Of a stretch of 23,905 nucleotides of DNA, positions 11,673 through 21,657 are shown piece after piece (the first letter of the stretch is position 1; every line of letters starts with the position of its first letter). A program made the position numbers and the translations under genes. The notes beneath the pieces are model-generated. The model saw only the letters and a program-made list of their open reading frames with translations. It was not told the DNA's origin and ran no database searches. Source of the DNA: a virus. Location of the stretch: positions 1 through 23,905 of IMG/VR virus record IMGVR_UViG_3300042868_003755; one strand, written 5' to 3'.

Positions 11673-12773
11673 TTAAAACAAGTCAACTTTTTCCCACGGC
11701 AAATGGGCTTTACCAAAATGTCCGTAGTTTGTGGTATCACTGTAGATTGGGCGGAACAACTCAAAGCGGTCAATGATGCCCTTGGGTGTTAAGTCCACTA
11801 TGGTCGGAACATGCAAAGTTAGATGCCTTGCCAGGGCTCGATCCTCACATTCCACATAGAAACTCATGGGCTGTGCTAGTCCAATGGCATAACTGATTTG
11901 CACAGTAGCCCAGTTGGCTTTGCCACTGGCCACAATGTTCTTGGCAATGTAACGCATCATGTATGCAGCACTGCGGTCAACTTTGGTAGGGTCTTTCCCC
12001 GAAAAAGCACCACCACCATGTGGGCTGTATCCACCGTATGTATCCACAATAATCTTGCGACCTGTTAGTCCAGTATCACCATCAGGACCACCAATTACAA
12101 AACGTCCTGTTGGGTTGATGTAAAATTCTGTTTTGTCATCTACCAATGTTACTGGCAATGTACCTCTGATCAATAATTCAATTGTGGCGCGAACTGTTTC
12201 AATGCCAACTTCTTCACTGTGCTGTGTGCTACAAACAACTTTGGCAACACGCTTGGGTTTGCCTGCTGAGTCGTATTCAAATGTTACTTGACTTTTTGCA
12301 TCTGGACCGAGCCAAGTAAAAATTCCTTGTTTTCTTGCATCAGTTAAGTGTTGCAAGATTTTGTGACTCCAGTAGATAGCACTGGGCATGAGAGTATCAG
12401 TTTCGTTACAAGCATAGCCAAACATCAAGCCTTGATCACCTGCACCAAACGTATCAGTGCCTAGTGCAATATCTGCGCTTTGCCCATGCAACAGATTGGT
12501 AATCTCCACAGTACGCCAGTCAAAGCCTGATTGTTCGTATCCAATATTTTTAATTGTTTTACGAATTGCCGAATCAACTTCTTCTTCATGCAGGATACCT
12601 TTGTACTCACCTGCTACCACAACACGGTTAGTGGTGACCAGAGTTTCGCATGCACATCGCAATGCAGAATCCTCCTTGGCCATTACCAAGTCCAGCACAG
12701 CATCACTGATAGCATCTGCTACTTTGTCTGGATGCCCTTCAGACACACTTTCACTTGTAAATAGATAACTCAT
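11673..12773 (-). CDS. metK: S-adenosylmethionine synthetase
   Basis: A 366-residue MetK, clearly alignable to the bacterial enzyme from end to end: SESVSEGHPDKVADAISDAV at the N-terminus (ATP and methionine site), GAGDQGLMFGYA (central motif), TGRFVIGGPDGDTGLTGRK, and the P-loop-like GGGAFSGKDPTKVDRSAAY. It converts methionine and ATP to SAM. E. coli MetK is 384 residues; here the C-terminus stops soon after LPWEKVDLF, and internal loops are trimmed. The start ATG 12773 is preferred over TTG 12794 because AAGGAAAAA precedes it and family homology begins there. It probably supports QueE, the radical SAM protein and three methyltransferases in this window. Confidence 0.95.
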   Translation of the reverse strand: MSYLFTSESVSEGHPDKVADAISDAVLDLVMAKEDSALRCACETLVTTNRVVVAGEYKGILHEEEVDSAIRKTIKNIGYEQSGFDWRTVEITNLLHGQSADIALGTDTFGAGDQGLMFGYACNETDTLMPSAIYWSHKILQHLTDARKQGIFTWLGPDAKSQVTFEYDSAGKPKRVAKVVCSTQHSEEVGIETVRATIELLIRGTLPVTLVDDKTEFYINPTGRFVIGGPDGDTGLTGRKIIVDTYGGYSPHGGGAFSGKDPTKVDRSAAYMMRYIAKNIVASGKANWATVQISYAIGLAQPMSFYVECEDRALARHLTLHVPTIVDLTPKGIIDRFELFRPIYSDTTNYGHFGKAHLPWEKVDLF

Positions 12774-13012
12774 TTTTTCCTTTTTAAATTCCAAATCAAA
12801 AACTCAAACTTATCAACCCAATAAATTTCCTCTATTGGCTCTCCGGGACCATGTATCCATCTGATACCATGATAGGCCCGCTTGCCCCACAATGGAGCTC
12901 CGCTGATAAAGCATTTTCTCGGAAGCCAACAAAGTTTCAAATCCCATTGCTGTGCTCTATTCAATCCCCAATTTTCCGATAGCGGCGCTTGTGTTACTTC
13001 GTCCAAGGGCAT
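12770..13012 (-). CDS. 80-residue hypothetical protein
   Basis: A small Trp-rich protein (starts MPLDEVTQAPLSENWGL; then KLCWLPRKCFISG and WVDKFEFLIW near the end). No family is recognised. I chose the ATG at 13012 because GGGGA lies 6 bases upstream and it shares a base with the stop of QueE (TGATG); an in-frame ATG at 13024 is a possible alternative giving 84 residues. Its end overlaps the metK start by four bases. The close position between QueE and MetK may mean a linked role, but nothing in the sequence shows this. Confidence 0.65.
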   Translation of the reverse strand: MPLDEVTQAPLSENWGLNRAQQWDLKLCWLPRKCFISGAPLWGKRAYHGIRWIHGPGEPIEEIYWVDKFEFLIWNLKRKK

Positions 13013-13863
13013 CAAGTTCCCCATTCGTTCTTGAACAACGGAACCTGTAGTCGATCACTGTAGCGCCAGCCTTCGTTCATAGCTAGGATAGCTACATTCT
13101 TATTGTTTAGTGCATACACACTTTCGACCCCGCCGATGGGCATCAAATACACATGCCCTTTAAATCCGGCTGCACGATATTCTGCCACTGCACGTTGAGC
13201 GTCTGCAAAATCTTCTTTGGTAGAAATTACCAGTTTCAAGTATGTATGCCCAACGTCTTCGTATTGACACACAATCTCTGGACGTATAGCATCTGACCAC
13301 TTCTCACCCGAACACGGCAGTTTAGCACTTACACTAAATGTCAATGCTTCGCGACCACGAGTTTTGTTTCCTAATGTCCAGTTCAGCAGATACTTTCTAA
13401 ACTCAGTAGTAAGTTCTTGAGTACCATTGGTTTCAAATGTGATCTCTCGAAGTCCTGCCATCTTAGGATCATCTAACAAACTAGGATAAGCACGTTGCCA
13501 GCCTAACAATGGTTCACCACCTGTGATCACAAGATGTTCATCACGCCATTCTTTAAACGGCAACATTGTCACAATGTCCTCTACGAGTTCAGTATTTTTA
13601 CGTACAGGACTTAGGTCTTTGAATCGTGGATCCCATGACGCATAGCTGTCACACCCTGTGCTTACTAAAGGCAAGTCATTGTATTTGCGGAATTGTACAG
13701 GATCAATAAACTCAGCTTCCGTACTTAATTCACCACGTGGCATACCAAATCCTGCACAGCGGAAATTACAGCCGAAAGTTCTAAGGAACACACTGGGGAC
13801 CCCCATATATCTGCCTTCACCTTGAACACTGTAAAACAGTTCTGCTACTTTAAGTTTACTCAT
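13012..13863 (-). CDS. queE: QueE-like 7-carboxy-7-deazaguanine synthase (radical SAM)
   Basis: A 283-residue radical SAM enzyme that contracts 6-carboxytetrahydropterin to 7-carboxy-7-deazaguanine. Family marks are ELFYSVQGEGRYMGVPSVFL (residues 8-27), RTFGCNFRC, ITGGEPLL (SAM contact GGEP) and FETNGTQ. The cluster cysteines are unusual: C32 and C36 follow the CxxxC spacing but the third, C71 in STGCDSYASWD, comes 34 residues later, so an insertion splits the motif. Downstream DSYASW matches the QueE tail of the motif. Its ATG overlaps the methyltransferase stop by ATGA. FolE and QueD in the same window supply its substrate. Confidence 0.88.
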   Translation of the reverse strand: MSKLKVAELFYSVQGEGRYMGVPSVFLRTFGCNFRCAGFGMPRGELSTEAEFIDPVQFRKYNDLPLVSTGCDSYASWDPRFKDLSPVRKNTELVEDIVTMLPFKEWRDEHLVITGGEPLLGWQRAYPSLLDDPKMAGLREITFETNGTQELTTEFRKYLLNWTLGNKTRGREALTFSVSAKLPCSGEKWSDAIRPEIVCQYEDVGHTYLKLVISTKEDFADAQRAVAEYRAAGFKGHVYLMPIGGVESVYALNNKNVAILAMNEGWRYSDRLQVPLFKNEWGT

Positions 13864-14645
13864 ATTTTTTGTGCTTTAATTAACAAATGCCAACCTAGAT
13901 ATTCTTTAACTGCTGCTCGCATCTCTTCACTCATCACAGCAAACCAAGGCTCTAATTCGTACTCGCCTGCACGGTACTTAGATACATTATACATGAAATT
14001 ATGATCTTGTCTAATTCTCAGGACTCGAAACTTCTCTTCCAGCAGATCATAAATTTCCTCCTTACTGTAGGCCCTGGCATATGGACAACCCGATTGTGCT
14101 TCAAATTGATCCAGCCCTTTTTGGATCATGGCATATTTCCAAGAATTCTTTGCGTATACCAACATGCGGAATTCTCCGTTGGGCACTAGAGCAGCATGAA
14201 TGTTATCTAAACATGCAGTCATATCAGGATAGTGATGCAGTACACCACAACTGTAAACCAAATCAAATTTGCCCAGGCTTGCTACTGCTGCACTGTCTGC
14301 ACCGTCCATCACATGAAACTCGCCGGTTAGTCCAAACAGCTCGAATCGCTGTTGACTCATAGCCACAGATTCTGCTGAAAGATCAATACCCACATAGTCA
14401 GCACCGTGCCGTGCAAATTCCACAGCATCTGATCCAATGCCAGATCCTATTTCTAACACACGCTTGCCTCGCCACAAGTGAAAACTGGCAAAATCACGTA
14501 GGTGTGGTTCTACAAAGAATCTACGTTCGGTGACTTCATTCCAATATTGTTCTGTGCCTGGCTCGCTAAGGCTGTGTTTGACATTACAAGGTTGTGCATT
14601 CCAGTAATGTTTAATTTTGTCTATAAGTTCAGTTGTCAAGTTCAA
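13860..14645 (-). CDS. class I SAM-dependent methyltransferase
   Basis: A 261-residue Rossmann-fold methyltransferase with motif I VLEIGSGIGSD (residues 63-73), acidic motif II GADYVGIDLS (81-90), FHVMDGAD, and the motif IV-like region FDLVYSCGVLHHY, typical of the Methyltransf_11/25 group. The C-terminal 80 residues carry extra helices (YARAYSKEEIYDLLEEKFRV) that may bind the acceptor. The start is TTG at 14645, chosen because GGAG lies about 6 bases upstream; it overlaps the end of the GT-A gene. Acceptor is unknown; the position among sugar genes and directly before QueE suggests a sugar or a modified base. Confidence 0.8.
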   Translation of the reverse strand: MNLTTELIDKIKHYWNAQPCNVKHSLSEPGTEQYWNEVTERRFFVEPHLRDFASFHLWRGKRVLEIGSGIGSDAVEFARHGADYVGIDLSAESVAMSQQRFELFGLTGEFHVMDGADSAAVASLGKFDLVYSCGVLHHYPDMTACLDNIHAALVPNGEFRMLVYAKNSWKYAMIQKGLDQFEAQSGCPYARAYSKEEIYDLLEEKFRVLRIRQDHNFMYNVSKYRAGEYELEPWFAVMSEEMRAAVKEYLGWHLLIKAQKI

Positions 14646-15471
14646 TGCTACTCCATGATTTCATTAGACCTTTGGTGTCTAATTTCAACATCTTGTGCCA
14701 GATGTCAATTTTGTTTTCTATACCCAATTTAAAATGTTCAAGATCGTACCCTAACGGGCTGAGGTAGTTGGCAATTTGTATAGCCTCTTGCATGCGACGA
14801 GTGCGCCAGGTGTGATGGTTGAAATCTCTAGGATGAGTGGGATTGCCTTCTAGCATAGGACGATTCTTGAATACATCGTCGCCGTTCTTACCAGTGAGAT
14901 CAAATCGTTCATGTTCGATCATCACGGGTATGGTGATTACGATGTCCAACATCCAGCCAATCTGACTGGTCCATGCATCATTGATCTGGTGCGGTGATAT
15001 ATTGCCTGTGATCTCTACCCACTTGCGTGGCAGGATAGGAAATATAGCATATGGATGTTCATGATTGGTTTCTGCTCGTAGTAATGCAAAGCGGTCATTG
15101 TGTTCACGGATAACATCATCCCATCCTTGGGTGGTCATCACAGCATCATCGTTCCAGAAGAAAATCCACGAACCTGTGCTGTGATTTGCTAGCTCATTGA
15201 GATATTCATTAAGACGAAGATAGCCCAAGCGTTTGAATTGCATAGCACTATAGGTTACACCTTTTGAATCAAGATATGGTGCAATCACATCCACAAAGTA
15301 TTCTATAGTATCTGTGTCGTCGTTGTCGAATGCTATCAATACTTCAATGCGTTCAGGGTGGGTGGCAGTATCAATTAGTGTGTGCAAGCATTGATCCATT
15401 GGAATTGGTCTAGCACGTACTGGTAATAATACACTAATATCAATATTGGGATTTTGTTCAGGTAAACTCAT
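14629..15471 (-). CDS. GT-A-like glycosyltransferase, paralog 1
   Basis: A 280-residue protein starting with DISVLLPVRARP (residues 10-21), the usual first strand of GT2-type nucleotide-sugar binding, then IEVLIAFDNDDTDT and SWIFFWNDDAVMTTQGWD, where NDD is a candidate metal-binding DxD-type motif. The central part (YAIFPILPRKWVEITGNIS) and LEGNPTHPRDFNHH are shared with the protein at 17390-18217, showing the two are paralogs. The sugar donor is not readable. It overlaps the radical SAM gene by ATGA, so all four genes from 13860 to 18217 are likely one operon. Function as a glycosyltransferase is supported by fold motifs only. Confidence 0.75.
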   Translation of the reverse strand: MSLPEQNPNIDISVLLPVRARPIPMDQCLHTLIDTATHPERIEVLIAFDNDDTDTIEYFVDVIAPYLDSKGVTYSAMQFKRLGYLRLNEYLNELANHSTGSWIFFWNDDAVMTTQGWDDVIREHNDRFALLRAETNHEHPYAIFPILPRKWVEITGNISPHQINDAWTSQIGWMLDIVITIPVMIEHERFDLTGKNGDDVFKNRPMLEGNPTHPRDFNHHTWRTRRMQEAIQIANYLSPLGYDLEHFKLGIENKIDIWHKMLKLDTKGLMKSWSSIELDN

Positions 15472-17393
15472 TGTGTTATACGGGTAATGTTGGTTTTTCC
15501 AAAGTTGCGTTTTCTACCAAAGTACATGTTCTCTAAGAAACGATCCTCACTCATGGCAGGATCTTCAGCTGTGTCAAATTTATAAACAGTGCGATTATCT
15601 AATGCAGCATTGTCTTGAATATAACCAAGGAAGTCATAGTCAAATGTGTGTGTTTGTGGGAACGCAGGTAAATCTCTGTAGTCGATCACATAATTTCGTT
15701 GAAATTTCAACAGTTGATTCTTTACTGGCAAATCAATATTATAGTGTGTGTTCAAGAACTTGTCAAGAGAATCAAAAACATAGTTGATCATTTTATCTTT
15801 GACCATGTACAGTGTGGTTCTGTGCATGAGGTTCCACCCAAACACTTCGATGTTACCAATACGCGGATGATCAATACGTCCCTTGGTCATCCAGTTTTCA
15901 AAGTAACTGCGTGTTTCTGCAAATTGCAGTCGGAACCATGGATCTTTCTGTACCCATGCATACAAGTCTTCGTAGAACTTGCTGTAGTCAATGTTCTGAT
16001 GCTTGGCTAGATATCTGGCTATATATGTGCTTAACCCATTAATATGGAATGTTTGAATAAAACTGCTCCACACTAAGGTATCCAACATAGTATCTCGCGG
16101 TATGGTCTTGGTACTCACAACCACATCAATACTTTCGTTGAGATCCACATCGCCATAGCTACCGCTCATGTAATCATACACAGGAACAGATTCTAGCTTG
16201 TATAGACGTTTTTGCAAGAGATTCATTTCGGCATTTTCCAGCAGTTGACATTGTAGAATGTTGATACCACCATGATTGCCTGCTCGGAAGATTTTCCAAA
16301 ACGCTTCTTTCCAGGACTCTACGGTTTCTCCAGGCAGGCCCAGGATCAGCTCTGTGTACACAGGAATATTGTTTTTGTCGCACAATGCAAAGATTTCGTC
16401 AATTTTGTGTTGATCAAGATTGCGACGTTTGATATTCTCCAATACATCGTTGTCCATGCTCTGCACACTCACTGTAAGACCTTGCCCAAAGTTAGGCGAC
16501 TCATCAATCAGTTTCTTCACAATATCCACAACTTCGTTCTTTTGATTCTTGGCCCAGGTCATGGAAAAACTTTCCAGTTTACCCCATCTCTTTTGCACTT
16601 CAATCAGCTTGTCCACAATCATGTTATCACGTTCCACAAACATACCAAAGTTGGCATCAGTGATAGTGACAAATCCACAATGTTCTCCAATCCAGTCTAA
16701 CTCATCGTACACACGTTGTAGATCAAACTTCTTGACCTTGTTGTATGTAAGACTGCCCCAGTCGCAAAATGTACATTGATACGGGCATCCACGATTGGTT
16801 TCCAGTGTGGCGTTCCAGATCACTTCGGGACTTTCGGCCATCACACGATCAAATATACCTGTGAGATATGGGCTAGGCACTTCGTCTAGATCATTGATGC
16901 GTTTGGGATCTCCTGTATCTACCAGCCCTGCGGCAGTGTTAATCAACAGTCCCGGAATGTGTGTGTAGTCAGTATTGTAATCTTCAAGAATATGTCTAAA
17001 GGTCATTTCACCTTCCATCTTGATCACTAGATCCATAAACGGTTCTTTTTCAAACAGTTTGGGATCTTCAATAGCCGGCTCTGGGCCGCCAAACACTATC
17101 AAACAGTTGGGGTTGAGTGTTTTTACCAGCCGAGCCAACTTGTAATTGTATCTGTGATTCCATACATAAGTTGAAAATGCTACCACATCACTAGTGCTTA
17201 GTTTTAATGCCAGTTCCTCAATAGGCGCCCTACGCCATACCAAGTGGTCTACTTCCCATGCTGCGTTGACTTTTTGTGAAGCGAGTGCATAACTCAGTAT
17301 AACTCCTGCAGAGTACGGCAAGTAGTATGCATTAAACTCTTTAGGACCTTGTTGAAAGTTGGGTTGGACGAAGCTGATTTTCTTTTTTGTCAT
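15468..17393 (-). CDS. B12-binding-domain radical SAM protein
   Basis: A 641-residue protein. Residues 1-150 look like a cobalamin-binding Rossmann domain (ISFVQPNFQQGP, later CLIVFGGPEPAI) but lack the DxHxxG cobalt-ligand motif. The radical SAM cluster motif is C203-PYQ-C207-TF-C210, followed by VTITDANFGM, VQSMD and TELILGLPGET, in normal order. The last 250 residues are helical and not recognised. Such enzymes often methylate unreactive carbons or rearrange ring systems. It lies between two paralogous GT-A genes, each with a 4-base overlap, which suggests a modified sugar or peptide substrate; that is inference. Confidence 0.85.
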   Translation of the reverse strand: MTKKKISFVQPNFQQGPKEFNAYYLPYSAGVILSYALASQKVNAAWEVDHLVWRRAPIEELALKLSTSDVVAFSTYVWNHRYNYKLARLVKTLNPNCLIVFGGPEPAIEDPKLFEKEPFMDLVIKMEGEMTFRHILEDYNTDYTHIPGLLINTAAGLVDTGDPKRINDLDEVPSPYLTGIFDRVMAESPEVIWNATLETNRGCPYQCTFCDWGSLTYNKVKKFDLQRVYDELDWIGEHCGFVTITDANFGMFVERDNMIVDKLIEVQKRWGKLESFSMTWAKNQKNEVVDIVKKLIDESPNFGQGLTVSVQSMDNDVLENIKRRNLDQHKIDEIFALCDKNNIPVYTELILGLPGETVESWKEAFWKIFRAGNHGGINILQCQLLENAEMNLLQKRLYKLESVPVYDYMSGSYGDVDLNESIDVVVSTKTIPRDTMLDTLVWSSFIQTFHINGLSTYIARYLAKHQNIDYSKFYEDLYAWVQKDPWFRLQFAETRSYFENWMTKGRIDHPRIGNIEVFGWNLMHRTTLYMVKDKMINYVFDSLDKFLNTHYNIDLPVKNQLLKFQRNYVIDYRDLPAFPQTHTFDYDFLGYIQDNAALDNRTVYKFDTAEDPAMSEDRFLENMYFGRKRNFGKTNITRITQ

Positions 17394-18217
17394 GCGGTAT
17401 TTACTCGTCTAACCGTGGCATCAACTTGATTATTGGTATCGTTGGCCCGCATCTTGGCCCAGGGATCTTGACGCCCTTCCCACGCTTCAACAAAAAATGT
17501 TAAATCAAGTCCTTGACCCTGCATCCACGTGGCCAATTTAGCAGCATCGTCGGTGCGCAATTTGACCATGTCAGGGTGATTTAAATCGCCAGATTGACTG
17601 GGATCGCCTTCCATGATACGACGTTGTTGATACGTTGCATCGTTGTTGACTCCTGTGATGTCGTAACGATTGTGATCGCAATGCACATCAATACGTTCAA
17701 ATATATCCAGATAGTACGCCAGTTGACTCACATAAGCATCATTTGAACTGTGTTGACTGATGTGTCCTAGAATTTCAAACCATTGTCGTGGCAAGATAGG
17801 AAAGATGCTGTACGGATGATTGTTGTGCGTGTACACACTCAGCAATTTGAATTCACCTGTACGCTCGCGTATACGTGCATCCCATCCTGGTGTTTTCATC
17901 ACAGCATCATCATTCCAGAAGAACAACCAGGATCCTTGGCTGTGTTCAGCTAGCCCATTCACATACTTGTGCAAGTTATTGTATCCCTGAGGTTCGAACA
18001 CCAAAATCTTATGATTGATTTTGTTTTGTTCAATCCAAGGGCATACATTGGCCAGCATGTTCTCCATGCCTACCACATCATCATTGTCCACTCCGAACAG
18101 CACTTCAATTGAGGAGAAATCTTCAGCAAGATTACAAAGACTTTGGATGCTACTCATTAATGCTTCAGCACGGCCCCTAGTAGGCAGCAAAATACTAATA
18201 TCAATTCCGTTATTCAT
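17390..18217 (-). CDS. GT-A-like glycosyltransferase, paralog 2
   Basis: A 275-residue paralog of the 14629-15471 product. DISILLPTRGRAEAL (residues 5-19), then IEVLFGVDNDDVVG and SWLFFWNDDAVMKTPGWDA align with the same positions in paralog 1. YSIFPILPRQWFEILGHIS and RIMEGDPSQSGDLNHP are also shared. The N-terminal TRGR is typical of GT2-type sequences. Divergence between the two copies suggests different donors or acceptors. It is the first of the operon leading to the radical SAM gene; its ATG at 18217 has a poor ribosome site six bases after the stop of the small membrane protein gene, so it may depend on coupling. Confidence 0.75.
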   Translation of the reverse strand: MNNGIDISILLPTRGRAEALMSSIQSLCNLAEDFSSIEVLFGVDNDDVVGMENMLANVCPWIEQNKINHKILVFEPQGYNNLHKYVNGLAEHSQGSWLFFWNDDAVMKTPGWDARIRERTGEFKLLSVYTHNNHPYSIFPILPRQWFEILGHISQHSSNDAYVSQLAYYLDIFERIDVHCDHNRYDITGVNNDATYQQRRIMEGDPSQSGDLNHPDMVKLRTDDAAKLATWMQGQGLDLTFFVEAWEGRQDPWAKMRANDTNNQVDATVRRVNTA

Positions 18218-18223
18218 TTTAAT

Positions 18224-18397
18224 TTACCAATGATGTATGACCCCTGCTGCAATAAAACAGTTGGTCACAATGTAGCATAATACAATGCAAGTTCGAATAC
18301 AGGCAACACGATTTGCTTCTGCATCCGTGTTGCCTGATTTTTCGCCTAGTGCCTTGGCCCAAAGACGCCAGATTTTATTAAAACTCGTGGTCTTCAC
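18224..18397 (-). CDS. 57-residue membrane protein next to queD
   Basis: A small protein with an N-terminal basic helix (SFNKIWRLWAKALGEKSGN) and a C-terminal transmembrane segment (ACIRTCIVLCYIVTNCFIAA) ending GVIHHW. I recall similar small phage membrane proteins with LWAxALGEKxxxxxxEAxxV and a closing GVIRHW. I place the start at GTG 18397, with AAGG 5 bases upstream, inside the end of queD by 20 bases; the longer GTG start at 18436 would add residues that only read across queD. The gene contains the inverted repeat 18300-18336. Function unknown. Confidence 0.65.
   Translation of the reverse strand: MKTTSFNKIWRLWAKALGEKSGNTDAEANRVACIRTCIVLCYIVTNCFIAAGVIHHW
18300..18336. repeat. 11-bp perfect inverted repeat inside a coding region
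   Basis: CAGGCAACACG (18300-18310) and CGTGTTGCCTG (18326-18336) are exact complements around a 15-base loop. On the plus strand the second arm is followed by ATTTTT, giving a terminator-like layout pointing against all annotated genes; on the minus strand no U-run follows. It lies within the small membrane protein gene. Confidence 0.6.
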
Positions 18398-18854
18398 GAT
18401 GACCTTGTCGGCCTGCCATGTTTGAATCGGTCTCACGCACTTCTACTCTAGTACACCACACACGTTTGGCTTCTTCCGCACCGCAGTTGGGCAAGAAGAT
18501 TGTGTTAACGTATTCGTACAAGAAGTCAGCAAGACCTTCACATCCTGTTTTTTCCACTTCTGTGATCTTGGCCAGCTTTAGTCTGCCCAGTTCCAACAGG
18601 TGTTCACGCATGGGATCATCTTGTGCAACCAGCAAAGTGTGATCAAACCAATCTTCTAAAAGGCCTTTGAGTGGTTTTAATCCACCAAAGTCAGTAACCC
18701 AATTACGAGCATCCAAGGTATCTGCTTCAAATTCAAAGTGAAAGCTCATTGCGTAGCCGTGGATGAGATTGCAGTGACTATCAGCTCGCCATTGACGATA
18801 CGCTACAGGCCCAATTTGCTTGTATGTTTTTGTTGAAAAATATTTCTTTGCCAT
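18378..18854 (-). CDS. queD: QueD-like 6-carboxytetrahydropterin synthase
   Basis: A 158-residue member of the 6-pyruvoyltetrahydropterin synthase family, which makes 6-carboxytetrahydropterin from dihydroneopterin triphosphate. Marks: RADSHCNLIHGYAMSFHFEF (residues 23-42) with catalytic Cys28 four residues before His32, WVTDFGGLKPLKG, FDHTLL (D71, H72) and VEVRETDSN (E141). The usual zinc motif HGH reads HGY here, and the loop between the first zinc His and Cys28 is missing. It has its own promoter (18872-18900) and a strong AGGAG site 7 bases before ATG 18854. E. coli QueD is about 120 residues, so this one is extended at both ends. Confidence 0.87.
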   Translation of the reverse strand: MAKKYFSTKTYKQIGPVAYRQWRADSHCNLIHGYAMSFHFEFEADTLDARNWVTDFGGLKPLKGLLEDWFDHTLLVAQDDPMREHLLELGRLKLAKITEVEKTGCEGLADFLYEYVNTIFLPNCGAEEAKRVWCTRVEVRETDSNMAGRQGHREDHEF

Positions 18855-20126: not shown

Positions 20127-20723
20127 TTATTCCTTAATGGTTATGTTTCGCAAATCTGGATACTGCACAAACTTAGGTTGTTCAGGAGCAGCTTGATACT
20201 GCGCCAATAACTCTAGTCCACGTTCAGCATCTTCAATTGCAGGCCTATAGTGATATCCCAACTGAAACGTTTTCTGTGTGTTCCAGGGTAAGATATTTAG
20301 GTCGCGACCATCATATCGTTGTTTTATCATCACTTCGTAGGCTTGCTTGTTATCTAATAGTATAGCACCACCGTGACCTATTTGTAAAGGCTTTGTATGT
20401 CCAAAACTCAAGCACTGCATTTGTCCGGTACGATACATGCCAGATTCCAACCGTCGAGCACTGTCCCAAACTCTAGTGTATATGAAATTGTACTCGCCGG
20501 CCCAGGTCTGTTCCGGCTCATCTAGATACACATAGTCAATGCCTAACTTATGCATGGTCATAGGCACACTCAAGTAAGTGTAAGGAGTCATCTTGAGACC
20601 CTTCACTAGTTCATATCTCAAACACATCTCTATGGCATGTGTACAGCAATCGGTCATGATTGCAGCAGGAGCGCCAGTGAACTTGGCTAATGCCCGTTCA
20701 AATTCAAGGATTTTTTCGAACAT
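20127..20723 (-). CDS. short DegT/DnrJ-type PLP aminotransferase homologue
   Basis: A 198-residue protein with pieces of the DegT/DnrJ/EryC1 sugar aminotransferase family: FTGAPAAIMTDCCTHAIEMC (cofactor-phosphate region, residues 15-34), PYTYLSVPMT, VWDSARRL (Asp87 position), and SFGHTKPLQIGHGGAILL with K111 in the Schiff-base position. Full-length members have about 370 residues; the C-terminal domain is missing, and parts of the core are shortened. It may be a compact enzyme, a partner of another subunit, or non-catalytic. The ATG overlaps the end of the epimerase gene by 20 bases and has a weak ribosome site. Stop is two bases before folE. Confidence 0.72.
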   Translation of the reverse strand: MFEKILEFERALAKFTGAPAAIMTDCCTHAIEMCLRYELVKGLKMTPYTYLSVPMTMHKLGIDYVYLDEPEQTWAGEYNFIYTRVWDSARRLESGMYRTGQMQCLSFGHTKPLQIGHGGAILLDNKQAYEVMIKQRYDGRDLNILPWNTQKTFQLGYHYRPAIEDAERGLELLAQYQAAPEQPKFVQYPDLRNITIKE

Positions 20724-21657
20724 ACCAAGCCCATGCGTGTTGAATCATATCTTCTAGTGCCCATTGACGCCAATTTGGCATCAACATACCAAACTTTGCT
20801 GCACTGGCAGTGAGCACAGCAGGATCACCTGCACGTCGAGGCTCTAGCAATACTGGCACCTTGCCTGCAATTGCAGCAGCGCATGCCAAGATTTCTTTTA
20901 CGCTGGTACCATTGTTTGTGCCTAGATTGTAAATGCCAGAGGGCACAGCAGCATCTAATGCACATACATGAGCATGTGCAATGTCTTCCACATGTACATA
21001 ATCACGTATACAAGTCCTGTCGGGTGTTTCGTAGTCATCACCATACAATGAAAACTGTTTGTTGTCACGAGTGGCTTCTAGGATTCTAGCAATCACATGA
21101 GTAGCACCTGGTTCTTGTCCATGTCGACCTAGACGATCTGCACCGCAAGCATTGAAGTAACGGAATGCTACATAGTCAAGATTGTACGCATGATGATAGC
21201 TGGCCAGCACTTGTTCAATCATGCGTTTGCTTTCACCGTAAGGACTCATAGGATCACATGGGTCAACTTCCGAACATGGATTCAGTATTGGCTCGCCATA
21301 TACAGATGCACTTGAACTAAAAATAAATTTAGTCTTGGGCAAGGCATTGACCACAAGTTCCAACAAGTGGATGGTCTTGATCACATTGTTGTGGTAGTAG
21401 TCGCCTGGATGTTTAACGCTGGGTCCTACCAAACTGGTACCAGCACAATGGATGATGGCGTCAGGTTGTAGCTGTATCAACTTTGTTTTGGCTTGATCAC
21501 TATCAAAGTCTGCTAGAACAAATTGATTAAAAACATCTTTCAATCGTGGCGGGCAAGGCCTACGGTCGATACCAATTACCCTATGCCCGGCATCAGACAA
21601 AGCCAATGCCACTTGCCCGCCAATGTATCCTGAGGCTCCAGTTACTACCACATCCAT
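20704..21657 (-). CDS. galE: UDP-glucose 4-epimerase-like SDR enzyme
   Basis: A 317-residue extended SDR. NAD-binding GASGYIGG (residues 7-14), DRR at 31-33, FIFSSSASVYG with Ser116 candidate, the catalytic Y140xxxK144 in SPYGESK, and FRYFNACGAD all match the GalE subgroup, which interconverts UDP-glucose and UDP-galactose (or the N-acetyl forms). RTCIRDYVHVEDIAHAH is the usual later motif. Length is slightly less than E. coli GalE (338). The ATG follows directly on the glycosyltransferase stop (TAAATG) with AAGGAAAA upstream. It probably supplies a sugar donor to one of the local glycosyltransferases; the exact substrate is not determined. Confidence 0.88.
   Translation of the reverse strand: MDVVVTGASGYIGGQVALALSDAGHRVIGIDRRPCPPRLKDVFNQFVLADFDSDQAKTKLIQLQPDAIIHCAGTSLVGPSVKHPGDYYHNNVIKTIHLLELVVNALPKTKFIFSSSASVYGEPILNPCSEVDPCDPMSPYGESKRMIEQVLASYHHAYNLDYVAFRYFNACGADRLGRHGQEPGATHVIARILEATRDNKQFSLYGDDYETPDRTCIRDYVHVEDIAHAHVCALDAAVPSGIYNLGTNNGTSVKEILACAAAIAGKVPVLLEPRRAGDPAVLTASAAKFGMLMPNWRQWALEDMIQHAWAWYVRKNP

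Follow-up and report, generated by a model that had tools for sequence, protein, structure and literature searches.

The 23,905-base IMG/VR virus record analysed here (the window) encodes a predicted cobalamin-dependent radical SAM C-methylase of the TokK/CysS class (RSAM), which stands between two paralogous glycosyltransferases (GT1 and GT2). TokK is a methylase of carbapenem biosynthesis, and methylases of its class have been studied in rare antibiotic pathways. The explanation favoured here, which was considered reasonably probable, is that the genes serve a large aquatic phage as a module for decorating glycans, in which the two glycosyltransferases would build a glycan and RSAM would C-methylate one of its sugars. 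The phage probably makes sugars with unusual extra methyl groups.

Gene order and coupling in the window

Every long gene treated here is encoded on the minus strand (Table 1). The order of transcription is MT245, a GT-B-like protein, a GalE-like epimerase, a short DegT-like protein, FolE, a HIT protein and QueD, continuing with a small ORF, GT1, RSAM, GT2, MT261, QueE, another small ORF and MetK; GT1, RSAM and GT2 are thus transcribed in that order, the reverse of their order in plus-strand coordinates. The preliminary description, made from the sequence alone, had joined these three genes by 4-base overlaps. Both junctions (GT1/RSAM and RSAM/GT2) were exact overlaps of the ATGA type (GCATGACA and CAATGAGT), and the run proved longer than described, GT2 overlapping MT261 and MT261 in turn overlapping QueE by 4 bases. 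When the window was compared with five relatives, dN/dS values for GT1, RSAM and GT2 were 0.03-0.07, with synonymous sites near saturation for the more distant pairs, indicating purifying selection. As gene order was also conserved in relatives, a chance reading of the three genes was ruled out.

Table 1. Positions, strand and basis of assignment of features in the window
Feature	Position	Strand	Basis
MetK (SAM synthetase)	11673..12794	-	Sequence reading
QueE-like 7-carboxy-7-deazaguanine synthase, downstream slot border	13012..13863	-	NCBIfam QueE models below cut-off
MT261, class I SAM-dependent methyltransferase	13860..14645	-	Pfam Methyltransf_12/23/25/11; phrog_22502 E 1e-54
GT2, paralogous GT-A glycosyltransferase, 280 aa	14629..15471	-	ORF, identity to GT1, Pfam
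GT2 FWNDDAV motif	15139..15159	-	Sequence
RSAM, predicted cobalamin-dependent radical SAM methylase, TokK/CysS/KedN5 class, 641 aa	15468..17393	-	Pfam, NCBIfam, phmmer, model
RSAM C-terminal domain, about residues 433-641	15471..16097	-	Boundary approximate, taken from CysS
RSAM W212, equivalent of TokK W215, SAM-cobalamin bridge	16758..16760	-	2 residues past last cluster Cys
RSAM CX3CX2C [4Fe-4S] motif, C203/C207/C210	16764..16787	-	Invariant in 34 relatives
RSAM W78, equivalent of TokK W76 and CysS W75, lower cobalamin face	17160..17162	-	Alignment
GT1, GT-A fold GT2-family glycosyltransferase, 275 aa	17390..18217	-	ORF, AlphaFold2, Foldseek, invariant residues
GT1 FWNDDAV motif, DxD-like metal/nucleotide site	17900..17920	-	Sequence, alignment A2
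Small ORF in QueD-GT1 gap, GTG start	18224..18400 (approximate)	-	Open frame
QueD, upstream slot border	18378..18854	-	Pfam PTPS E 8e-15
GalE-like UDP-sugar 4-epimerase	20704..21657	-	Pfam Epimerase E 2e-55; PDB UDP-glucose 4-epimerase E 8e-63

Some of the gene names rest on a reading of the sequence, the weakest being GT-B, MT245 and MetK; family searches gave no convincing match for the GT-B-like protein or for MT245. MetK, which adjoins QueE in five relatives also (L007, L018, L039, L042 and L066), is a possible source of SAM for both radical and ordinary methylation. QueE of the window was 47% identical to QueE of Synechococcus phage BUCT-ZZ01, had an odd spacing past its second cysteine (CNFRCAGFGMP...STGCDSYASW) and scored below the cut-off of every QueE model; no other gene of the run varies as much, its identity among relatives being 53-98%. 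The ORF in the gap between QueD and GT1 ends in ...FIAAGVIHHW and holds an 11-bp inverted repeat (CAGGCAACACG/CGTGTTGCCTG), and an ORF of similar length occupies the same position in L005 and L006. The DegT-like aminotransferase (20127-20723, minus strand) is only 198 aa long and matches the Pfam domain in two stretches, but it is conserved among relatives and is possibly a shortened or repurposed enzyme. Within RSAM, upstream of GT2, a perfect TTGACA-17-TATAAT was present (15766-15738, minus strand), although the total of sigma-70-like sites in the region around it was not above chance.

Enzyme class of RSAM and the flanking transferases

The central gene had been described as a radical SAM protein of the B12-binding type, which was borne out by Pfam domains (B12-binding at residues 37-135 and Radical_SAM at 199-364, both above cut-off) and by phmmer matches to TokK (E 6.6e-86) and CysS (E 9.5e-48). 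The AlphaFold2 model of RSAM (pLDDT 88, pTM 0.85) was matched by Foldseek to TokK along its whole length, with a TM-score of 0.85 over 674 columns, and to CysS with a TM-score of 0.71; the cluster-binding loop of the model (residues 204-218) was of low confidence and the prediction contained no cofactors. As the match was whole-length, the last 200 or so residues, which are helical and for the most part well predicted, were assigned to a C-terminal substrate domain of the TokK/CysS type. The three cysteines C203, C207 and C210 and the tryptophans W78 and W212 were invariant across 34 viral and cellular relatives. In TokK, W76 lies under the cobalamin and W215 between SAM and cobalamin (PMC9692996), while W75 of CysS lies at the lower cobalamin face (PMC12846815). 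The KedN5 family NF033712 matched RSAM with an E value of 2e-74 over positions 14-368 only, at 250.8 bits against a curated cut-off of 700, and RSAM is a relative of the KedN5 subfamily and not a member of it. No PHROGs family matched RSAM. Sequence and predicted model alike relate RSAM over its full length to the TokK/CysS-class cobalamin-dependent radical SAM C-methylases, and the activity predicted for it is C-methylation of this class; the preliminary description had found no pathway that it could name, and the enzyme chemistry, at least, can be named more exactly.

The two transferases had been presented as GT-A paralogs sharing the motifs FWNDDAV and FPILPRxW. They were 42% identical over approximately 260 residues (E 8e-69), FWNDDAV and FPILPR[QK]W were present in both, and, rather than falling into unrelated families, both are GT-A enzymes of the GT2 family, the fold being taken from the predicted GT1 model and the assignment of GT2 from its sequence. 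The Pfam model Glycos_transf_2 was passed by GT2 (24.3 bits, cut-off 23.3), whereas GT1 remained under the cut-off at 18.2 bits. The AlphaFold2 model of GT1 (pLDDT 92.5, pTM 0.91) was matched by Foldseek to TarP, SpsA and TarS at E values from 5e-10 to 2e-08, with RmlT also among the best matches, which include transferases of teichoic acid and of the spore coat; TM-scores to these were only about 0.5, and the fold matches therefore do not reveal the donor or the acceptor. Structure prediction, proposed earlier for the transferases and for the last 250 residues of the radical SAM protein, accordingly returned a GT-A fold for GT1 and a TokK-type C-terminal domain within those residues of RSAM. 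Searches of the PDB by sequence and by profile gave no match for GT1 or GT2. Residues D44, D47, D103 and D160 were invariant among 44 homologs and are kept in both transferases. In the alignment of these homologs (A2), W101 and D103 of the FWNDDAV region were invariant, and F100, N102 and D104 were conserved in at least 90%. GT2 retains all of the invariant columns and, because the invariant residues are present in both proteins, GT1 and GT2 both look catalytically competent.

Distribution, mobility and loss of RSAM

The comparative set comprised 71 viral loci with RSAM and 80 with GT1; a wider viral scan yielded 555 confirmed RSAM relatives (confirmed by matches to two motifs), and genome contigs yielded 415. 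The region between QueD and QueE (the slot) contained RSAM in 35 distinct sequences. RSAM-GT2-MT261 was present in 31 of these and the full order GT1-RSAM-GT2-MT261 in 21, L037 being counted as having GT1, so that the arrangement for which a homology search in other phages had been proposed is linked in close relatives. Roughly one in three slots with RSAM had no GT1. The order was GT-GT-RSAM-MT261 in L045 and L087, while L051 and L055 carried RSAM-GT followed by other sugar genes, and some further QueD-QueE slots contained glycosyltransferases but no RSAM. The cargo of the slot varied freely and included C-methyltransferase, UGD, epimerase and E1 enzymes: in L051 a sugar C-methyltransferase (Methyltransf_13/14), UGD and an epimerase follow RSAM-GT, and in L055, as in the Marinimicrobia contig L144, RSAM is paired with TPP-dependent E1 subunits. 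Viral or mis-binned contigs may account for some of the closest 'genome' matches (L144-L146).

RSAM was also found away from the slot. The jumbo-phage copies L025, L027 and L057 nested within the slot clade in a tree built by a quick method, and their neighbours were unrelated to slot genes and mostly on the opposite strand; the L025 and L057 copies were 79-84% identical, with every neighbour different. RSAM is thus a mobile gene that passes from one phage lineage to another independently of its neighbours. In L087, RSAM was 57% identical to that of the window and did not group with the remaining slot copies in the tree, while the other genes of that slot were ordinary relatives. As this copy again lies beside two glycosyltransferases and MT261, the result suggests that RSAM was recruited twice to the slot, to the same partners, although the exact place of L087 in the tree is unsure because of long branches. 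Loss was also seen. In L077 (10825-10997), only the first 63 bases of RSAM and some 98 bases near its end were left between an intact GT1 and an intact GT2. An assembly effect could produce such a remnant, but the additional substitutions in what is left speak for genuine decay. With both glycosyltransferases kept after this decay, RSAM looks like a dispensable tailoring step.

The preliminary description had suggested a duplicated transferase with an enzyme acquired or kept between the copies. Acquisition fits the independent mobility of RSAM, but duplication in place is no more than a possibility. GT1 and GT2 formed two separate clades in the transferase tree, with GT1 closer to a clade of marine phage glycosyltransferases, yet a single clade of the two was not rejected (p-AU 0.31); the GT-GT-RSAM order and the slots without GT1 described above bear on the same question.

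The same mobility could mean that RSAM, as a mobile gene of selfish or generic nature, has a function unrelated to the glycosyltransferases and came to lie between them by chance. Such a gene would account for the solitary movement of the L025 and L057 copies into different neighbourhoods and for its loss from L077 while both transferases stayed. This explanation was nevertheless considered unlikely, given at least two apparent arrivals beside glycosyltransferase and MT261 genes, the exact 4-base overlaps, the conserved order and the strong purifying selection. Furthermore, isolated copies too usually adjoin other sugar genes. A UDP-glucose dehydrogenase lay within 6 kb of RSAM in 13 of 72 distinct viral loci, epimerases and SGNH-type proteins were also found next to RSAM outside the slot, and several more distant cellular relatives were situated among DegT, epimerase, glycosyltransferase and flippase-like genes. 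Some copies (L065, L260, L265 and L279) had no sugar-gene seed nearby, which counts against a sugar substrate. Some neighbours of RSAM in jumbo phages appear glycosyltransferase-like as a sequence impression only, and these matched no PHROGs family.

Several other arrangements were observed around RSAM. In L068 (2938-6851) and L070, RSAM is sandwiched by two proteins of 332 and 326 aa, a second type of sandwich, the first protein of which has a DESYD motif that is also found in neighbours of jumbo-phage RSAM; the L068/L070 phage carries IscU/IscA-like proteins. In jumbo phages, three more radical SAM proteins, SPASM-like by reading, lie beside UGD and RSAM (L025, 13095-16669, minus strand). 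Metagenome-assembled genomes of gut Clostridia (L156, L163 and many others) carry two to four tandem TokK-class copies beside sugar-activation-like genes.

Substrate of the methylase and comparison with known systems

In the glycan-decoration reading, GT1 and GT2 would transfer sugars from nucleotide donors onto an acceptor. In the reaction of RSAM, one SAM would methylate cob(I)alamin; a second would give rise to a 5'-deoxyadenosyl radical that abstracts hydrogen from an sp3 carbon. The carbon radical left behind would take the methyl group from methylcobalamin. As the substrate of RSAM we infer a sugar of the glycan, methylated either as a nucleotide sugar or after transfer, with MT261 contributing a further, ordinary methylation; the host would have to supply the B12. 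The glycan would belong either to the host envelope, where it may change the receptor or block competing phages, or to the virion. The preliminary description had offered sugar, base or peptide as the target. A sugar was judged likeliest, because the neighbours of RSAM are sugar genes in the slot, in jumbo phages, in several cellular relatives and in L051, and because the nearest relatives of the GT and MT261 proteins in isolate phages lie in or beside the sugar cassettes of HTVC008M and Bellamy; a shared neighbourhood does not prove a shared substrate. A peptide was unsupported and a DNA base disfavoured in relatives. A nucleoside substrate keeps a small probability, since the window is a region of replication and nucleotide metabolism with queuosine-precursor genes.

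Some T4-like phages glycosylate their DNA. In a DNA hypermodification scheme, the glycosyltransferases would glycosylate a modified phage DNA base and RSAM would methylate the base or the sugar, possibly with a link to 7-deazaguanine, as FolE, QueD and QueE flank the module, QueE with a 4-base overlap, and 7-deazaguanines occur in phage DNA (PMC6884629). However, searches of 12 relatives with phrog_887 and phrog_7068, which did find the positive control of phage 9g, gave no DpdA, although contigs may be incomplete, other DpdA groups might escape these models and the window itself is a fragment. RSAM of jumbo phages, furthermore, lies beside sugar genes without FolE or QueD, and DNA hypermodification was considered distinctly unlikely. 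Hydroxymethyl-base glycosylation was rejected as a candidate, the thymidylate-synthase/hydroxymethylase family being absent from 10 of 11 relatives, some of them longer than 190 kb.

Glycosylated queuosines exist in nature, and the borders of the slot, QueD and QueE, also raise the possibility that a queuosine precursor is produced by the phage, with the glycosyltransferases and RSAM modifying queuosine in tRNA. This would agree with the presence of Vut_1, a YhhQ-type queuosine-precursor transporter, between QueD and GT1 or RSAM in L028 (1044-1667) and also in L029, L036 and L053, the assignment in L029 and others being by sequence similarity. Queuosine tailoring was considered very unlikely, however, as the variable sugar cargo of the slot has no known queuosine role, relatives of the GT and RSAM proteins are widespread without FolE and QueD, and no TGT was found in relatives with PF01702, although the host could supply TGT. 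PF01702 missed the DpdA of phage 9g used as a control and was therefore not used as a test for DpdA. QueC gave weak matches only, in 4 relatives, which leaves synthesis of preQ0 no more than a possibility. As the relatives lack DpdA and nearly all of them lack the thymidylate-synthase family, in records that are possibly incomplete, the Que genes are less likely to feed the module than to serve some other purpose as suppliers of a queuosine or 7-deazaguanine precursor.

RSAM is of a type whose members, with all catalytic residues, are spread over hundreds of uncultured phage contigs, in sugar operons where these were examined. It is tentatively proposed, as a serious possibility, that the B12-dependent radical SAM methylases of many uncultured phages form a mobile family that makes C-methyl-branched sugars on host or virion glycans. 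If so, viruses would be using a way of tailoring sugars that has not yet been described for them. A sugar substrate would extend radical C-methylation to phage glycan tailoring and make new B12 methylases available, and glycan modification by the phages, and with it infection, would depend on host B12/cobalamin. Slots with RSAM, with decayed RSAM and with other cargo offer ready comparisons.

Among known enzymes, RSAM resembles TokK/ThnK and CysS/KedN5 over its full length in having a cobalamin domain, a radical SAM core and a C-terminal domain, and it shares with TokK and CysS the CX3CX2C motif, the tryptophan of the lower face and the tryptophan bridging SAM and cobalamin. It differs in sequence, being 28-29% identical to TokK and 21% to CysS by structural alignment, and the gate residue Trp271 of CysS aligns, by reading, with Ser277. 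TokK and CysS belong to bacterial antibiotic clusters and act on pantetheine-linked, non-sugar substrates, which speaks against the sugar reading, whereas RSAM lies in a phage sugar operon. TarP, TarS and SpsA resemble GT1 in their GT-A fold and DxD-type metal site, at an identity of only 10-14%.

No close relative was found in isolate phages; in an isolate-centred collection, only two unannotated phage records matched RSAM, distantly (24% identity). Literature searches within an open-access library found no report of a phage cobalamin radical SAM enzyme or of sugar C-methylation by such enzymes. Among phages, a relative of MT261 (44%) was present in the T4-like cyanophage Bellamy, where it belongs to a one-strand sugar run with a nucleotidyltransferase, epimerases, glycosyltransferases, a NodU-like carbamoyltransferase, a NadE-like protein and UGD, and pelagiphage HTVC008M has a distant GT-A relative (25-27%) in a similar run with UGD and glycosyltransferases. 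Neither phage has an annotated RSAM, NodU-like carbamoyltransferase and NadE-like genes being present instead, and the stretches examined were without FolE, QueD and QueE. Pelagimyophages have variable host-recognition cassettes with glycosyltransferases, for which a role in changing the O-chain of the host was proposed; radical SAM gene cassettes distinguish two of the genomes, and freshwater members are reported to be without LPS and radical SAM genes (PMC7029224). The passages on these cassettes do not name the type of radical SAM protein or describe a GT-RSAM-GT unit. The module of the window is most aptly regarded as a variant of these phage sugar cassettes to which a cobalamin-dependent radical methylase has been added.
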